A stretch of DNA of 38,895 bases, taken from a virus. Within the stretch, counting starts at the first letter, position 1, and every line of letters starts with the position of its first letter. The notes below the pieces were generated by a model. That model searched no databases. It was given only the letters and a program-made list of their open reading frames with translations, and had not been told where the DNA came from. Shown here one piece after another: positions 23,260-28,732 of the stretch. The position numbers and the translations under genes are program-made. The DNA lies in IMG/VR virus record IMGVR_UViG_3300048686_000146, positions 1-38,895 of that record; one strand, given 5' to 3'.

Positions 23260-23925
23260 TCACATTACAAGTGGTTTATATGGTCTTAATAAAGCATCCA
23301 CTCCATAAGGAATGTTTTGTAATTTAGTTAAAGTTGTTTCAGCACGATTATTATATAAATGAGTTAGTAATAATAAGCCTGCTTGCTTAATTACAGGATA
23401 TGCTTGCAAGAAGTTAGGATTTTGCGTGTATTCTACAACAAGCGGACTTGTTCTATTCATGCTGATATTGCTAGGCGTGCCATTAGGCAAAATAACTTTA
23501 TTGCCTGTAACATCATAGTAATAATCGTTAGTTGTAAGTGTAACTAAAACGCTTGGGCTATTTCCGTTATAGTAAGCAACTTTATTAATTGCAACGCCAC
23601 CTGAATTAAAGCTATCTTTATAAGATGCTTCAGGCAAATCTAGGCAAACAGGGCTAGCATAGATTGACGAAACATTATAATAAACGCGATATGAAGTAGG
23701 AAAGATAGACATACCGAGATAATCCTCAATATGCATTCTTACCGCTACTTCTAACCCTTCTAAATAAGCATCTTGTGATTCATCACCAAACAAGTTTAAT
23801 TGATTAGTAATCTCATCAAGCGTTAGCCAATTAGTTGTTAAATCGCGTGCAATTTGCTCAACCTTTGTATAATTAAAAGGATTGCGAGTTGCCGCATAAG
23901 GAACTTGCCCTAGCGTATCAGCCAT
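23260..23925 (-). CDS. Head-tail connector (gp6-like)
   Basis: The 221-residue protein carries the gp6-like connector layout: LTLDEITNQLNLFGDESQDAYLEGL (about 34-58), VAVRMHIEDYLG (about 61-72) and PLVVEYTQNPNFLQAYPVIKQAGLLLLTHLYNNRAET (about 158-194), with the final conserved helix and Tyr/Asn-rich end. Such proteins attach below the portal and bridge to head closure proteins. It lies right after the second capsid gene, in the order expected for HK97-like heads. Confidence 0.75.
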   Translation of the reverse strand: MADTLGQVPYAATRNPFNYTKVEQIARDLTTNWLTLDEITNQLNLFGDESQDAYLEGLEVAVRMHIEDYLGMSIFPTSYRVYYNVSSIYASPVCLDLPEASYKDSFNSGGVAINKVAYYNGNSPSVLVTLTTNDYYYDVTGNKVILPNGTPSNISMNRTSPLVVEYTQNPNFLQAYPVIKQAGLLLLTHLYNNRAETTLTKLQNIPYGVDALLRPYKPLVM

Positions 23926-23928
23926 TTA

Positions 23929-24987
23929 TTAAACCCCTACTAAAAATACGCCTGCAAAAGGATTGCGAACAGTAGATGCTAATCGTTTTTCAGCATATAG
24001 TGTTACAAAGCCGGGTGCAGTTTGATCAAAGCGCTTAATATTCATTTCCTCTGCATCAGCAATAGTTAGGAATTGATCCCAATTTGCTAATACACCTGAA
24101 ATCTTGCCTGCCGCAGGTGCGTCTAGGTAAGGATTAGGAATTACAGGGAAACCAAATAGATAAGCTAAAGCACCGCCATCATCATCGCCTGTTTCAACAA
24201 ACATTGGCGCACCACCTGTTGATCCTTTTAATTTTCTTAATTGAGAAATTAAAGAAGGATGGAAGTGCCATGCAGTTGTAGGCAAACTCCAATATTGACC
24301 GGGCAATAATGAAGCCGCATTTACAATATCATCATAAGTAATTGCTGAAGCTGAAAACTCTTCTTTTAAAATGGTATGGATACCATTAGTTATAGCAGTT
24401 CCGCTAGTGCCGTAAGCGGCCGCTGAAGTGCTTGTATTATAAACAACCAAACCGCGCAAACCATCAGTTCCGCCTGTTGATGTTGTTGTTGATCCTGATT
24501 GATCATCATTAGTAGCCATAGATTGCGCTTCTAACGCTGAAAATTCGAGCATCAAATCATTCACAATTGCTGATTCAAGTCCATTAATATCTGACATTGC
24601 CGCAGTTCTAATTGGCAATTGCGCAGTTATAACTCTTGTTGGAAGTTGCCAAAAAGAAGTAGCAATATTTGGGCTACCACTATCAGGAACAACCGCATAA
24701 GTCCAAGGATTAGTTGAGTTAGCCGCGTTACCTGTTTTAGCAACAAATTGAGCCGCAGAAGTATTTGTGGATTTGATTTGACGAGAACCTTGTCTGAAAG
24801 GATTAGCATAACGGAGTGCCGCGAATGCATCGTCAAAGTATATTCTACCACCAATATTTAAACCGCTACCTGTAAGCGCTGACGCTTCCTTAACATCTTG
24901 GGCTTGTTCCTCAAACAAATTAACTTTAGCTTCGCCTTCAGTTAATGCTTGCTTAATGCCTTTAAAAATTCTTTCAGATGTATTCAT
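23929..24987 (-). CDS. Second HK97-fold capsid protein without a delta domain
   Basis: The 352-residue protein is a clear paralogue of the capsid protein at 25055-26401. Both share KEASALTGSG (33-42 here), FAALRYANPFRQGSR, PIRTAAMSDINGLES, MLEFSALEAQSM, GLRGL and the final LFGFPVIPNPYLDAP ... GFVTLYAEKRL. It lacks the roughly 100-residue N-terminal scaffold-like delta domain of its partner; only about 35 residues precede KEASALTGSG. It could be a minor capsid protein, perhaps at the vertices like T4 gp24, or an alternative subunit. A hairpin lies between the genes, so this copy may be made in smaller amounts. Confidence 0.8.
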   Translation of the reverse strand: MNTSERIFKGIKQALTEGEAKVNLFEEQAQDVKEASALTGSGLNIGGRIYFDDAFAALRYANPFRQGSRQIKSTNTSAAQFVAKTGNAANSTNPWTYAVVPDSGSPNIATSFWQLPTRVITAQLPIRTAAMSDINGLESAIVNDLMLEFSALEAQSMATNDDQSGSTTTSTGGTDGLRGLVVYNTSTSAAAYGTSGTAITNGIHTILKEEFSASAITYDDIVNAASLLPGQYWSLPTTAWHFHPSLISQLRKLKGSTGGAPMFVETGDDDGGALAYLFGFPVIPNPYLDAPAAGKISGVLANWDQFLTIADAEEMNIKRFDQTAPGFVTLYAEKRLASTVRNPFAGVFLVGV

Positions 24988-25054
24988 TTTTCTTTCCTAA
25001 ATTAATTAAAGAAGGGGCGGATTGCTCCGCCCTTCCCGTTACCATAGTTTTAAA
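24988..25054 (-). terminator. Stem-loop between the two capsid genes
   Basis: GGGCGGA (25015-25021), TTGC and TCCGCCC (25026-25032) make a perfect 7-base GC stem that extends by AAGG/CCTT with one extra G bulged. On the minus strand it is followed by TTCTTTAATTAATTT, an imperfect T-rich tail. It lies just after the major capsid stop and before the second capsid start (AGGAAAGAAAAATG). It may be a partial terminator or an mRNA-stabilising hairpin that raises the yield of the first capsid gene over the second. Confidence 0.7.
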
Positions 25055-26401
25055 TTATGGTTTTGTTACAGTTGCAGTTGATCTATATCTTACTAAAGCG
25101 AAAGGATCGACCACGCTTGTGCATAGACGCTTTTCACCATAGAAAGTGATAGAGCCGGGCAATGTTTGATCGTAACGGCGTAGAACCATATTTAAACGAT
25201 CAACGATTGCGTGGCAACGATTCCAATCACCAAAATACATTGGATAGAGAGAATCTGTGCCTGCCGCAGTATCAAGGAATGGAACATCTAGGTATTTATT
25301 AACAACAACATCAAAACCTAATAATGTGCCAACGATACCATCATCGCGTGATAGACCATCAACATAAATTGGGCGACCTTGTGAATCTGTTAAACCACGA
25401 ATAGCCGCTAACATGAGTGGGCTAATAATGAATTTAGCAGTTGGTGTCCAATATTGTTGTGGTAAAGCATAGATAAAGTTCACTACATCTTTATAAGTTA
25501 CATTATTCACGCCACCATCGCCGTTTGTTGTCAATTGGTCGTATGTAGCGATGTCATGTAAGCCTGATGATGAACCTGTGCCTGATGAACCATAAGCCGC
25601 AGTAGAAGTTGTTCCACCTGTGTATGATGCATTAGCGCCGGGATATTGATTTAAACCGCGTAAGCCGTTTGAACCACCATAAGGCAATGTTGTAGCACCT
25701 TGATCATTGTTTTGGATCATTGAAAGAGCTTCTTGTTGAGAGAACTCAAGCAACATATCTGAAACAACATTAGATTCTAGGCCATCAATATCATCAAGAG
25801 CCGCAGTTCTGATTGGGAACTGTGTATTTAAATCTTGAAGAGTTAATTGCCAAATTGTTGTAGCTTCAGTTGTTGGGTTAGCACCTGATGAAGTGTTGTT
25901 ATTGATTGGATAACCCCACATAGCACCTGCGTTACCTGTTTTAGCTCTGAATTGATAAGTTGCGCCATCAGTAGCAACTGCGCGTGAAACACCACGCATT
26001 GGGTTTGCTAAACGGAGTGCAACAAATACAGGATCATAAGCAGTTCTACCACCAACGCCTGCGCCTGAACCTGTCAATGCTGAAGCTTCTTTTAAGTAAG
26101 CATCATATTGACCTGCATCTTCAAACATTTTGATTTCTTTTTCGTTACGGCCACCGGCTTTAACGAATTCAGCTAATTGACCTTTAACCATACGATTAAC
26201 TTCTTGGCTGATTGATTTGTAAGTTTTGATTGTTGAAGGAGCTTGAACTGAAGCAACTTTAGCTTCAAGAGCCGCAACTTTTTCATCGAATGAAGCTACT
26301 GTTTCAGCAAGTTTAGCATCAACGGATGTTGTAATTTCATCCACTTTCGCTAAATTTGCGGCTTCAATAGCGTCAAGTTTTTCCATTATTTTTTCTGACA
26401 T
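25055..26401 (-). CDS. HK97-fold major capsid protein with delta domain
   Basis: The 448-residue protein has an N-terminal helical delta domain (about 1-105, heptad-rich with DEKVAALEAKVASV) that serves as internal scaffold in HK97-like heads. The HK97 fold follows, marked by KEASALTGSG (104-113), VALRLANPMRGVSR, NTQFPIRTAALDDIDGLES, MLLEFSQQEALSM, GLRGLNQYPG and the ending PGSITFYGEKRLCTSVVDPFALV. The delta domain is probably cut off by the protease encoded upstream. It lies after the protease gene, in standard order portal-protease-capsid. Confidence 0.9.
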   Translation of the reverse strand: MSEKIMEKLDAIEAANLAKVDEITTSVDAKLAETVASFDEKVAALEAKVASVQAPSTIKTYKSISQEVNRMVKGQLAEFVKAGGRNEKEIKMFEDAGQYDAYLKEASALTGSGAGVGGRTAYDPVFVALRLANPMRGVSRAVATDGATYQFRAKTGNAGAMWGYPINNNTSSGANPTTEATTIWQLTLQDLNTQFPIRTAALDDIDGLESNVVSDMLLEFSQQEALSMIQNNDQGATTLPYGGSNGLRGLNQYPGANASYTGGTTSTAAYGSSGTGSSSGLHDIATYDQLTTNGDGGVNNVTYKDVVNFIYALPQQYWTPTAKFIISPLMLAAIRGLTDSQGRPIYVDGLSRDDGIVGTLLGFDVVVNKYLDVPFLDTAAGTDSLYPMYFGDWNRCHAIVDRLNMVLRRYDQTLPGSITFYGEKRLCTSVVDPFALVRYRSTATVTKP

Positions 26402-26407
26402 GACTAT

Positions 26408-27220
26408 TTATCCTTTTAAACGATTGTTAAGTTTTTTGAGTAAGTCGCGCTCTTCTAAAGCTTTTAGAATTGCTTCTTGCTCATTTACCACCGCATCAGC
26501 TTCACTCTGAATAGGTGCTTTTTCAACACTAACTTCAGGCTCATCACGAGTTGCTAAAATTTGTTTGAAAATTGAAGACGCGGTGGTCGCATCTTTTCTT
26601 GAAAGTTTTGCATCACGCAATGCCTTCTCGATTAGTTTTAAATCAAGCGTTCCATCTTCGCGGAAGCATGATTCTAATTTTGAAATATTGCATTCAAGAT
26701 TGTTAGGTTGCATAACGATTGAAACTTCTCTTAAACCGCCTTTAGTAATTTGGAAATAGCCATCTTCGTCTGCGTCTGCATCCATCATATTGCCTTCAGC
26801 ATCAACCATTGCATATTCGTCTGCATAAGCGCCAACAGAAACACCGCCAACCATGTTTGGTGATTCTTTCATAATTGTATAAAGGTCTTTACCGGCAGTT
26901 GTATTTGTAAATAGACGGCCTTTAGCATTCATGCCTGTATCTGTAAATTCAAACTCTTGCCATTCACCAACAGGCATTGACATATCATTATGTTGAAAAT
27001 ACATTGGAAGTGGTTTGCCTGATTTTGCAAACTCATCAGCCCATTGTGCAAAGCCTTCAGGTTTATAATTAAATTTACGACCATCAGCGCCTTCTCTAGC
27101 GCCCCAAGTCGTTACAGTAGCTTCAATAACGCCACTATCTTCAATAGCTTCATCGGCTTTAACGCCTAATGCAACTTTAGATTCGAAAAAGAACTTCTCG
27201 AAATTTGATTTGTTAATCAT
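26408..27220 (-). CDS. HK97-type prohead protease (S78 family)
   Basis: The 270-residue protein has the catalytic parts of HK97 gp4-type serine proteases: MYFQHND (73-79, His77), PVGEW (83-87) and NMVGGVSVGAY (122-132, Ser128). REVSIVMQPNN (about 167-177) completes the core. The C-terminal 80 residues are charged and helical, probably a targeting tail. It removes the capsid delta domain and itself during head maturation. The start overlaps a 36-residue gene by 8 bases. Confidence 0.85.
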   Translation of the reverse strand: MINKSNFEKFFFESKVALGVKADEAIEDSGVIEATVTTWGAREGADGRKFNYKPEGFAQWADEFAKSGKPLPMYFQHNDMSMPVGEWQEFEFTDTGMNAKGRLFTNTTAGKDLYTIMKESPNMVGGVSVGAYADEYAMVDAEGNMMDADADEDGYFQITKGGLREVSIVMQPNNLECNISKLESCFREDGTLDLKLIEKALRDAKLSRKDATTASSIFKQILATRDEPEVSVEKAPIQSEADAVVNEQEAILKALEERDLLKKLNNRLKG

Positions 27221-27323
27221 TGATTGGCACTCCCTTTTTTTTCATTCCGTTAGTTTCAACAGGTTGAGGTTTTCTCTTTTTAGCCTGTTGGGTTAATTTA
27301 TCGAGCAACTCTTTTAATGTCAT
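27213..27323 (-). CDS. 36-residue basic protein between portal and protease
   Basis: The frame ATG 27323 to TAA 27213 overlaps the portal stop (TAATG) and ends 8 bases inside the protease gene. It encodes MTLKELLDKLTQQAKKRKPQ then a Lys-rich end. AGGAAAAGC before the start supports translation. The N-terminal amphipathic helix and basic tail could interact with portal, protease or DNA, but no family was recognised. Tight coupling on both sides makes a real gene likely. Confidence 0.6.
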   Translation of the reverse strand: MTLKELLDKLTQQAKKRKPQPVETNGMKKKGVPIND

Positions 27324-28732
27324 TAGGCTTTTCCTGCCTGACCTGTTTTGCCAACGCTAGAAGTATTGCCACCGCCACCTGTATCTTGAGGTGAAGTGCC
27401 GCTAATAGGTTTAGCTTGTTTTGATGTATCTTTTAATTCGTCTGCGCCATCCATATTTTCTTTGCCTAAATATTCGCGCGCTTCATTAGGTGTCATTATA
27501 CCATTATTTACACCTGCTACTGCGTAATTCATTTGGTCTAATGGCGCACCTTTTAAAAAATCTTGAGTTTGGAATTCAATACAGAGATTTGGATAGCCTG
27601 CAAGTAATGAAGTTTTAAATTTCTGACTTATATTAGTAATAATTGGCAACATTGTTGATTTATAGAATTCATCTAACATTGTTTGAGTGTTATTGTATTT
27701 ACCTTCCTCAATTCCAATCATTGCCGGTGGAACGCCAAACAATCCGCATATACGCTTCATAGTTTGTTGCTTTAATGCGCGTGCATCAGCGTCTTGAAGT
27801 GTAAGCATATCAAGTGGCATATATTTCATGCCGTTATCTAATAACATACCTTGTCCGGGTTTGGATAAATCAGTTGATTGCGATCCTGTTAATGATGACC
27901 ATGCTTCTTTTAATCTTGCCGCAATTTCTTTAAATTTAGAATCAGGAATAACTTGGTCTGTAACAAACATTCCACTAGGTTTAGCGCCATTAAGCATAAT
28001 AAAGTTTGAATATAGATCAATATCTTGATCAAGTGATACAAGTTCAGTTGCTAAAATGCCTTTATTGAAACCTGCTGAACCTTGCCAAGCCATTTCACTT
28101 GCATGAATAACTTGGAAATATTCTAATGGCTCATCTTTATTAAATCCGTAAGTGCTAGTCGATAATCTATAAGTAGGGTATCGAGTAGGTGTTATTTGAG
28201 CGGTTATTAAAGTTGAATCCAATAGATACATTTCCATTGGGGTTAGCGTTGAGTTTGATTGCTCTTTACGCCATAAAGCGGTAAATGTTTCGCCTGATAA
28301 GTCATACCACATAGACCATTGATACCAAAATTCGTATGCGGATTGATAGTTATTTGGATTATTAAGCAAGTTATAAACTGCTTTTGCTTTAGCTTTATCT
28401 CTTGCTGAAACTTTAGAATCGGTTACTGCATCAACTAATTTACCATTGGCATCATAAGCCATGATCTTAATTGGCAATTGAGCTAATGCTCTTGCTTTTG
28501 CATTTACGCAAGCCATAACTGTTGAATTACGGCTTAATACTGACATATCAACTACTCGGCCTGCGGTATTAACAGAGCTTGTAGTTACATATAATAATTG
28601 ATTATTCGCTTGTTGTTTTTGGCCTGAAACATTGCGTAAGATGTTGTTTCCTAACGCAGTTTGGCCAAATAGGGTATTACTTTCTTGAGCGGTTTTGTTT
28701 GACTTTCTTTTGAAAATATCCGTTATAGCCAT
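27323..28732 (-). CDS. Phage portal protein (HK97 family)
   Basis: The 469-residue protein matches HK97-type portals: RNSTVMACVNAKARALAQLPIKIMAY (about 64-89), YEFWYQWSMWYDLSGETFTALWR (about 133-155), the stem region with ILATELVSLDQDIDLYSNFIMLNG (about 225-248), and LKQQTMKRICGLFGVPPAMIGIEEGKYNNTQTM (about 315-346), the family's best block. The dodecameric portal is the DNA entry channel and binds terminase. It comes after the large terminase in the standard order with 9 bases between. Confidence 0.9.
   Translation of the reverse strand: MAITDIFKRKSNKTAQESNTLFGQTALGNNILRNVSGQKQQANNQLLYVTTSSVNTAGRVVDMSVLSRNSTVMACVNAKARALAQLPIKIMAYDANGKLVDAVTDSKVSARDKAKAKAVYNLLNNPNNYQSAYEFWYQWSMWYDLSGETFTALWRKEQSNSTLTPMEMYLLDSTLITAQITPTRYPTYRLSTSTYGFNKDEPLEYFQVIHASEMAWQGSAGFNKGILATELVSLDQDIDLYSNFIMLNGAKPSGMFVTDQVIPDSKFKEIAARLKEAWSSLTGSQSTDLSKPGQGMLLDNGMKYMPLDMLTLQDADARALKQQTMKRICGLFGVPPAMIGIEEGKYNNTQTMLDEFYKSTMLPIITNISQKFKTSLLAGYPNLCIEFQTQDFLKGAPLDQMNYAVAGVNNGIMTPNEAREYLGKENMDGADELKDTSKQAKPISGTSPQDTGGGGNTSSVGKTGQAGKA

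Follow-up and report, generated by a model that had tools for sequence, protein, structure and literature searches.

Separate HK97-fold penton proteins occur in T4-like phages and, in a hijacked phage head, in the form of the satellite protein Ccm. Here we describe a pair of adjacent capsid genes, P1 and P2, of a small freshwater phage, in an IMG/VR virus record of 38,895 bases (IMGVR_UViG_3300048686_000146), the whole of which is referred to below as the window. P1 and P2 are paralogous HK97-fold capsid proteins; P1 carries a full N-terminal scaffold (delta) domain, of which P2 retains a stub. We propose that the pair forms a two-protein HK97-fold head with a fused scaffold in a phage family of 39-kb genomes.

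The T4 head offers the closest parallel. It is built from gp23 in the hexons and gp24 in the pentons, again a capsid protein and a paralogue of the same fold, and the vertex copy has the shorter removed N-terminal peptide, 10 residues in gp24 and 65 in gp23 (PMC9958956). Like gp24, P2 is paralogous to the capsid protein of its own phage and has a far shorter N-terminal part. T4 uses a separate scaffold and has a much larger prolate head (PMC10275583, PMC13185644), whereas the present phage, with a 39-kb genome, carries its scaffold as part of P1. The penton placement of gp24 is proven, while that of P2 is a proposal. A P2 profile run against Protein Data Bank (PDB) sequences to E = 1 gave no match to gp24 and three matches in all, to RcGTA and cf-PICI capsids only. 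Ccm, encoded by SaPIbov5, is a capsid homologue that co-assembles with the phi12 capsid protein and fills the pentamers of the procapsid, as seen by cryo-electron microscopy (PMC8569155). The satellite that encodes it hijacks the phage, and Ccm has a delta domain of 87 residues and 24% identity to the phage capsid protein, whereas P2 is the phage's own gene and sits in its head module directly after P1. Because P2 has no sequence match to gp24, and Ccm is a satellite protein, we do not class P2 as a member of either type.

Other systems share part of this arrangement. The HK97 capsid protein gp5 and RcGTA g5 have the same fold, and the fused scaffold of gp5 comprises a tower, a spoke and a cleavage site, a layout also proposed for P1; in these systems, unlike in the arrangement proposed for P1/P2, one protein makes both hexons and pentons. 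The best sequence and structure matches are to RcGTA. Family 2B encapsulins, like the present locus, encode two HK97-fold shell proteins per operon (PMC8346489), although they are bacterial compartments with cNMP-binding domains and lack the portal, scaffold and protease genes found here.

Results

Two paralogous capsid proteins

Both capsid open reading frames lie on the minus strand of the window.

25055..26401, minus strand: P1, HK97-fold major capsid protein of 448 residues that carries the full scaffold (delta) domain at its N-terminus (Pfam, PHROG and RcGTA profile matches)
23929..24987, minus strand: P2, HK97-fold capsid paralogue, 352 residues, proposed penton (vertex) protein (identity to P1, Pfam match, structure model)

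An earlier note on this DNA had described a tandem pair of HK97-fold capsid proteins at exactly these coordinates, and this description is borne out. BLASTP aligned the two proteins with 154/380 identities (41%), 224 bits and E = 5e-74, a similarity far above chance, and both matched PF05065 (Phage_capsid) well above its cut-off of 24.2 bits (P1, 8.2e-30 and 104.6 bits; P2, 4.1e-19 and 69.5 bits). PF05065 was the only Pfam family found in P1 and P2 at E <= 0.001, and no cNMP-binding domain was detected. P1 additionally matched PHROG 10, major head protein (8.6e-30), and, in a profile search, the RcGTA capsid protein (1.1e-10). The shared blocks that the note had quoted are present: KEASALTGSG in both proteins, the paired block PIRTAALDDIDGLES and PIRTAAMSDINGLES, GLRGL and EKRL. 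The two paralogues are also distinguished by a P1 loop (about residues 376-382) that is 7 residues longer than in P2 and the four outgroup sequences printed in the alignment. The P2-specific residues include W240, E313 and R341, which stand opposite F324, L403 and V431 of P1. A lysine, K154 in P1 and K84 in P2, is at least 90% conserved in both proteins and missing from the same four outgroup sequences. The G+C content is 40% in both capsid genes, compared with 36% for the whole record.

The P2 structure was predicted as an HK97 fold with a predicted local distance difference test score (pLDDT) of 73 and a predicted template modeling score (pTM) of 0.73; the P19250A proteins, from an isolated relative described below, were excluded from the structure-prediction alignments. 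The best Foldseek match of the model was the RcGTA capsid 6tb9 (E 2.8e-15), and it aligned with RcGTA 6tsu_B5 (VIA) over 258 residues with Z 21.7 and a root-mean-square deviation (rmsd) of 5.2. The P1 model was poor (pLDDT 55), so the P1 fold assignment rests on sequence.

The scaffold domain is partially lost from P2

The two proteins differ most at their N-termini, where the following segments are relevant.

26213..26401, minus strand: P1 residues 1-63, predicted long helix forming the coiled-coil "tower" half of the scaffold (low-confidence model; no P2 counterpart in the joint alignment)
26063..26092, minus strand: P1 KEASALTGSG, residues 104-113, putative scaffold cut region (conserved; aligned to where the N-arm of other phage capsids starts)
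24889..24987, minus strand: P2 residues 1-33, helix-turn-strand stub, counterpart of the HK97 "spoke" (model and HK97 alignment)
24862..24891, minus strand: P2 KEASALTGSG, residues 33-42, probable protease-site region common with P1 (conserved)

In HK97, scaffold residues 2-66 form trimeric towers, with which the portal-adjacent hexons grip the portal (PMC10275583). The spoke of Prohead I, residues 76-103, consists of a helix (76-88) and, after a turn, a strand (92-97) belonging to the P-domain sheet; the spoke lines the capsomer interior, and cleavage follows at K103/S104 (PMC10275583). Upstream of the E of the EAS-TGSG block, P1 proteins have 96-111 residues (n=53) and P2 proteins 22-41 (n=49; 33 in the window), and the E and S of the block itself are invariant in 53/53 P1 and 49/49 P2 sequences. 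The P1 model places a helix at residues 2-51 with low confidence. The P2 stub was modeled as a helix (3-17) followed by a strand (19-23), and the P2 alignments with uncleaved proheads begin inside the prohead scaffold domain. P2 residues 5..352 aligned with HK97 Prohead I 8fqk_A chain residues 76..382 (Z 17.0, rmsd 3.6, 245 aligned) and residues 1..352 with D3 9osb_A chain residues 81..394 (Z 17.1, rmsd 3.7, 246 aligned); the ranges mark only where each alignment starts and stops, and the P2 model has pLDDT <50 at residues 28-56.

By this comparison, P2 is without the coiled-coil tower of about 70 residues but has kept the spoke and the cleavage region. The claim that P2 lacks the delta domain thus applies to the tower half, approximately the first 70 residues, and not to the helix-turn-strand stub of 22-41 residues, which is kept. 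By analogy with HK97 K103/S104, cleavage probably takes place at the conserved block of P1, and perhaps at that of P2.

P1 and P2 form a fixed pair in a phage family

Among 50,697 phage records searched at E <=1e-5, P1 and P2 each matched a single record, Methylophilaceae phage P19250A, at 77% identity. The P19250A genes P19250A_0005 and P19250A_0006 (KX815270) have the same order and lengths as P1 and P2, with a hairpin in the gap as in the window; the first is annotated as "gene transfer agent capsid protein" and the second as "hypothetical protein". The literature searched, which did not cover the first description of P19250A (Moon et al. 2017, Environ Microbiol), where the pair may have been recognized earlier, contained no report of two HK97-fold capsid proteins in this family. 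Venkman (L157, MT375522), which is called similar to P19250A in synteny in one report (PMC8163748), was considered as a second isolate and rejected. Its record has a single capsid gene alongside a separate scaffold gene and tail tube genes of podovirus-like type, and it gave no P1 or P2 match at E <=1e-5.

Relatives were found in 136 IMG/VR stretches for P2 and in at least 596 for P1, from which the best 80 of each were kept. The full sample, 319 loci and the window with some overlap among them, was profiled for P1 and P2 and leans toward relatives of the window. All 182 of the 182 P1 genes that were distinct by DNA and had at least 1500 nt downstream were followed by P2. Similarly, 186 of 187 distinct P2 frames with >1800 nt upstream were preceded by P1. 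The exception, L164:3660-3926 (JALRLM010000136.1, a Hydrocarboniphaga metagenome-assembled genome), lies at a contig edge where GC-rich, bacterial-looking DNA enters in the middle of P2, and on inspection by eye the contig appears to be a chimeric assembly. The pair is fixed throughout a large and mostly uncultured family of phages, neither gene being lost within the sample. An artefact of assembly was rejected as an explanation, the pair being present in the isolate P19250A and in many contigs. The earlier note had proposed looking for both genes in related genomes and had counted decay of the second gene there against its interpretation; P2 was instead intact, adjacent to P1 and under purifying selection.

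No relative with a single capsid gene was found within the family using four P1 queries and one P2 query in viral contigs and the P2 profile in genome contigs, a search biased by the use of family members as queries and of the best 80 loci or fewer per query. Beyond the family, seven of the nine next-best phage records had one annotated capsid gene after the protease; the other two, where the capsid region is occupied by a "hypothetical protein" on the opposite strand, were not used.

Origin and selection of the two genes

A tree was constructed from 41 of 122 representative pairs (up to 11 chosen, 30 random) and seven capsid proteins of other phages. One branch, with a Shimodaira-Hasegawa approximate likelihood-ratio test (SH-aLRT) value of 90, separated all P1 proteins from the rest, a second (97) did so for all P2 proteins, and the outgroups stood apart (100). 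The stem lengths were 0.25 for P1 and 1.10 for P2. The root is uncertain because long branches meet, as the program warned. In the alignment, the FGD and VDR motifs in the C-terminal part of P1 are common to the outgroups, and P2 differs there. The simplest reading is a single duplication before the family diversified, with P2 as the more changed copy.

The median ratio of nonsynonymous to synonymous substitution rates (dN/dS) was 0.16 for P1 and 0.22 for P2, with a P2 maximum of 0.50, in the 205 pairs with dS <1.5 of 1501 examined. Median core identity was 0.57 for P2 compared with 0.73 for P1. By these estimates both genes are under purifying selection, P2 being the less constrained.

Five loci (L091, L096, L125, L102 and L126) encode a P2 with an extra N-terminal domain of ~100 residues (RGLDWRKEF...GGTEVGVARARDI...). 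The extended frames are L091:2816-4138, L096:5688-7007 and L125:5933-7255, and lie within 1733-3229 in L102 and 5922-7253 in L126. The extra domain of L125 matched PHROG 2859 (unknown function; 9.9e-30, residues 5-105) and no Pfam family. An internal ATG may still yield ordinary P2 from these genes.

A conserved hairpin separates P1 from P2

Two elements were identified in the gap between the genes.

25015..25032, minus strand: GC-rich hairpin GGGCGGA-GCAA-TCCGCCC, terminator-like, followed by a T-rich stretch at 25005-25014
24992..24998, minus strand: AGGAAAG, probable P2 ribosome-binding site, judged from its sequence

We searched the 65 nt after the P1 stop codon for a stem of at least six pairs, at least four of them G-C, in 152 distinct stretches, excluding loci whose gap lies <75 nt from their end. 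A stem was present in 149/152 gaps, whereas 20 rounds of dinucleotide shuffling gave 13.6 on average and 23 at most, and a stem followed by at least four T in the next 10 bases was present in 139/152 (4.1 when shuffled, maximum 9). Control stretches, which include redundant loci, had a stem in 11/294 cases inside P1, 8/294 inside P2, 16/271 after P2 and 4/294 at the P1 end. Among the three gaps without a hairpin by this criterion, inspection by eye showed a similar stem with a longer loop in L142, frame boundaries that cut the hairpin in L064, and an inserted open reading frame in L074. L074 and L077 each have a short extra open reading frame in a P1-P2 gap of about 320 nt, and by eye its translation resembles an HNH-type endonuclease.

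The gaps contained 108 distinct best stem-loops. Covariation was evaluated in 33 hairpins, the window and 32 of the 43 listed, with a 4-base loop and 7-9 pairs; these were chosen by their stem, which favors the result. All seven pairs vary on both sides and 99.6% of cells pair, with a covariation score of 0.74 versus 0.21 for shuffled and <=0.15 for slid pairings.

The P2 start lies 27 nt past the stem, and the P1-P2 gap showed no sigma-70-like promoter, so P2 and the later genes probably need read-through. Dependence on read-through would in turn leave P1 in excess over P2, as a division into hexon and penton proteins needs. We infer that the conserved, covarying hairpin is a leaky terminator that keeps P2 scarcer than P1.

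The head-gene module

The remaining head genes were assigned by profile matches.

27323..28732, minus strand: portal protein (Pfam Phage_portal, 1.7e-60)
26408..27220, minus strand: prohead serine protease, S78 (Pfam Peptidase_S78, 2.4e-9)
23260..23925, minus strand: head-tail adaptor of the Ad1 type, next after P2 (Pfam Phage_connect_1, 4.4e-6; PHROG 40, 6.9e-12)

The order on the minus strand is small and large terminase subunits, portal, S78 protease, P1, P2, Ad1 adaptor and connector/tail genes. No gene lies between the protease and P1, which adjoin each other. P1 has the composition of an HK97-type capsid protein with fused scaffold, namely ~100 helical residues, a prohead protease gene beside it and no separate scaffold gene, whereas P2 does not. 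The S78 protease is expected to trim P1 and perhaps P2.

Discussion

Our overall reading, to which we assign a probability of roughly 0.55, is that P1 forms the hexons and recruits the portal, P2 forms the pentons, the S78 protease trims both, and the hairpin sets their ratio. A single ancient duplication of a major capsid gene of HK97 type would have produced two proteins that act in a single head shell. P1, with tower and spoke, would build the hexons, among them the five that surround the portal, and P2, which lacks the tower but retains shell fold, spoke and protease-site region, would build the eleven pentons. Both proteins would be trimmed by the protease. The hairpin after P1 would pass part of transcription on to P2 and the connector genes, giving an excess of P1. 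For a presumed triangulation number (T) of 7, the head would need 360 P1 to 55 P2. A penton subunit could spare the tower because a trimeric tower fits six subunits and not five, and because pentons miss the portal. The most specific form of this proposal, with the tower-bearing paralogue in the hexons and at the portal, the spoke-only paralogue in the pentons and a leaky terminator tuned near 360:55 for T=7, is more tentative, and we give it somewhat less than even odds. We regard it as quite probable that P2 belongs to the shell, whatever its position there. The suggestion of the earlier note that P2 has a vertex or minor-subunit role like T4 gp24 is the best supported of its ideas, given the obligate pairing, the derived P2, the retained fold and spoke and the hairpin.

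Several observations weigh against this assignment. HK97 pentons are built from the same tower-bearing protein as the hexons, so towers are compatible with pentons (PMC10275583), and the delta domain of Ccm, a proven pentamer protein, indicates that a penton protein need not lose its tower (PMC8569155). The P1 and P2 subtrees are non-congruent and pair identities correlate at only 0.41; L091, for example, is 80% identical to the window in P1 and only 54% in P2. This discordance suggests recombination between the P1 and P2 genes, perhaps at the hairpin, and that one gene may be exchanged without the other. For the hairpin, the T-tail is interrupted in the window, and folding of the whole gap beat shuffled sequences only moderately in three gaps (z -2.3, -1.7 and -1.2).

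Other roles for P2 can be evaluated with the same evidence. P2 might be a minor subunit beyond the pentons, mixed into hexons or placed at a special position such as the capsomers by the portal. Its fold and paralogy permit such co-assembly, the operons of Family 2B encapsulins provide a precedent for two shell proteins encoded together (PMC8346489), and a two-component Streptomyces lydicus shell (9bje, 9bix) is among the P2 fold matches. However, a hexon that included some P2 would be expected to break two trimeric towers, and a portal-adjacent location is unlikely because the portal-adjacent hexons of HK97 use towers and P2 is without one. We consider this role unlikely, though it retains some weight. 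A non-virion function as an assembly factor, inhibitor or capsid-fold chaperone for head assembly would agree with the encoding of P2 alongside the connector genes on the low-expression side of the hairpin, but it is improbable for a protein that has kept features to be expected in a shell subunit, namely the complete HK97 fold, the spoke and the block at the protease site. More improbable still is a switch of head size or shape that alters the triangulation number or permits two head sizes. Ccm does turn phi12 heads from prolate to isometric by filling the pentamers (PMC8569155), but P2 is present in every member with room for it, so no second state is apparent, and a non-systematic search found no second genome size class or link to a satellite. 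The idea that P2 alters head size, also raised earlier, accordingly gained no evidence. A redundant or decaying duplicate was rejected as scarcely credible. Although P2 evolves faster, it is intact and adjacent to P1 throughout, its dN/dS stays low and the duplication appears to predate the family.

A separate question is whether the hairpin is a leaky terminator or instead a 3'-end stabilizer or processing site for the P1 message. The stem is more strictly kept than the T-tail (149 versus 139 of 152), and the interrupted tail in the window fits the latter function as well; the excess of T-rich tails over shuffled sequences argues for termination. We view stabilization or processing as possible but the less likely function. 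Stabilizer and terminator alike would yield more P1 than P2, so that the argument from relative amounts stands under either.

Every sampled member with room carries the pair, in which one paralogue still has the fused scaffold and the other a trimmed one. Should P2 prove to be the penton protein, the family would be a natural experiment for telling the scaffold parts that act at the portal and in hexons from those that act in every capsomer, and for learning how the ratio between two shell proteins is set by a phage. The role of P2 is testable because a family member, P19250A, has been isolated. If the tower is confined to the hexon protein in this way, the trimeric scaffold tower would be dispensable at the fivefold vertices, and a dedicated penton protein would not need a large genome.

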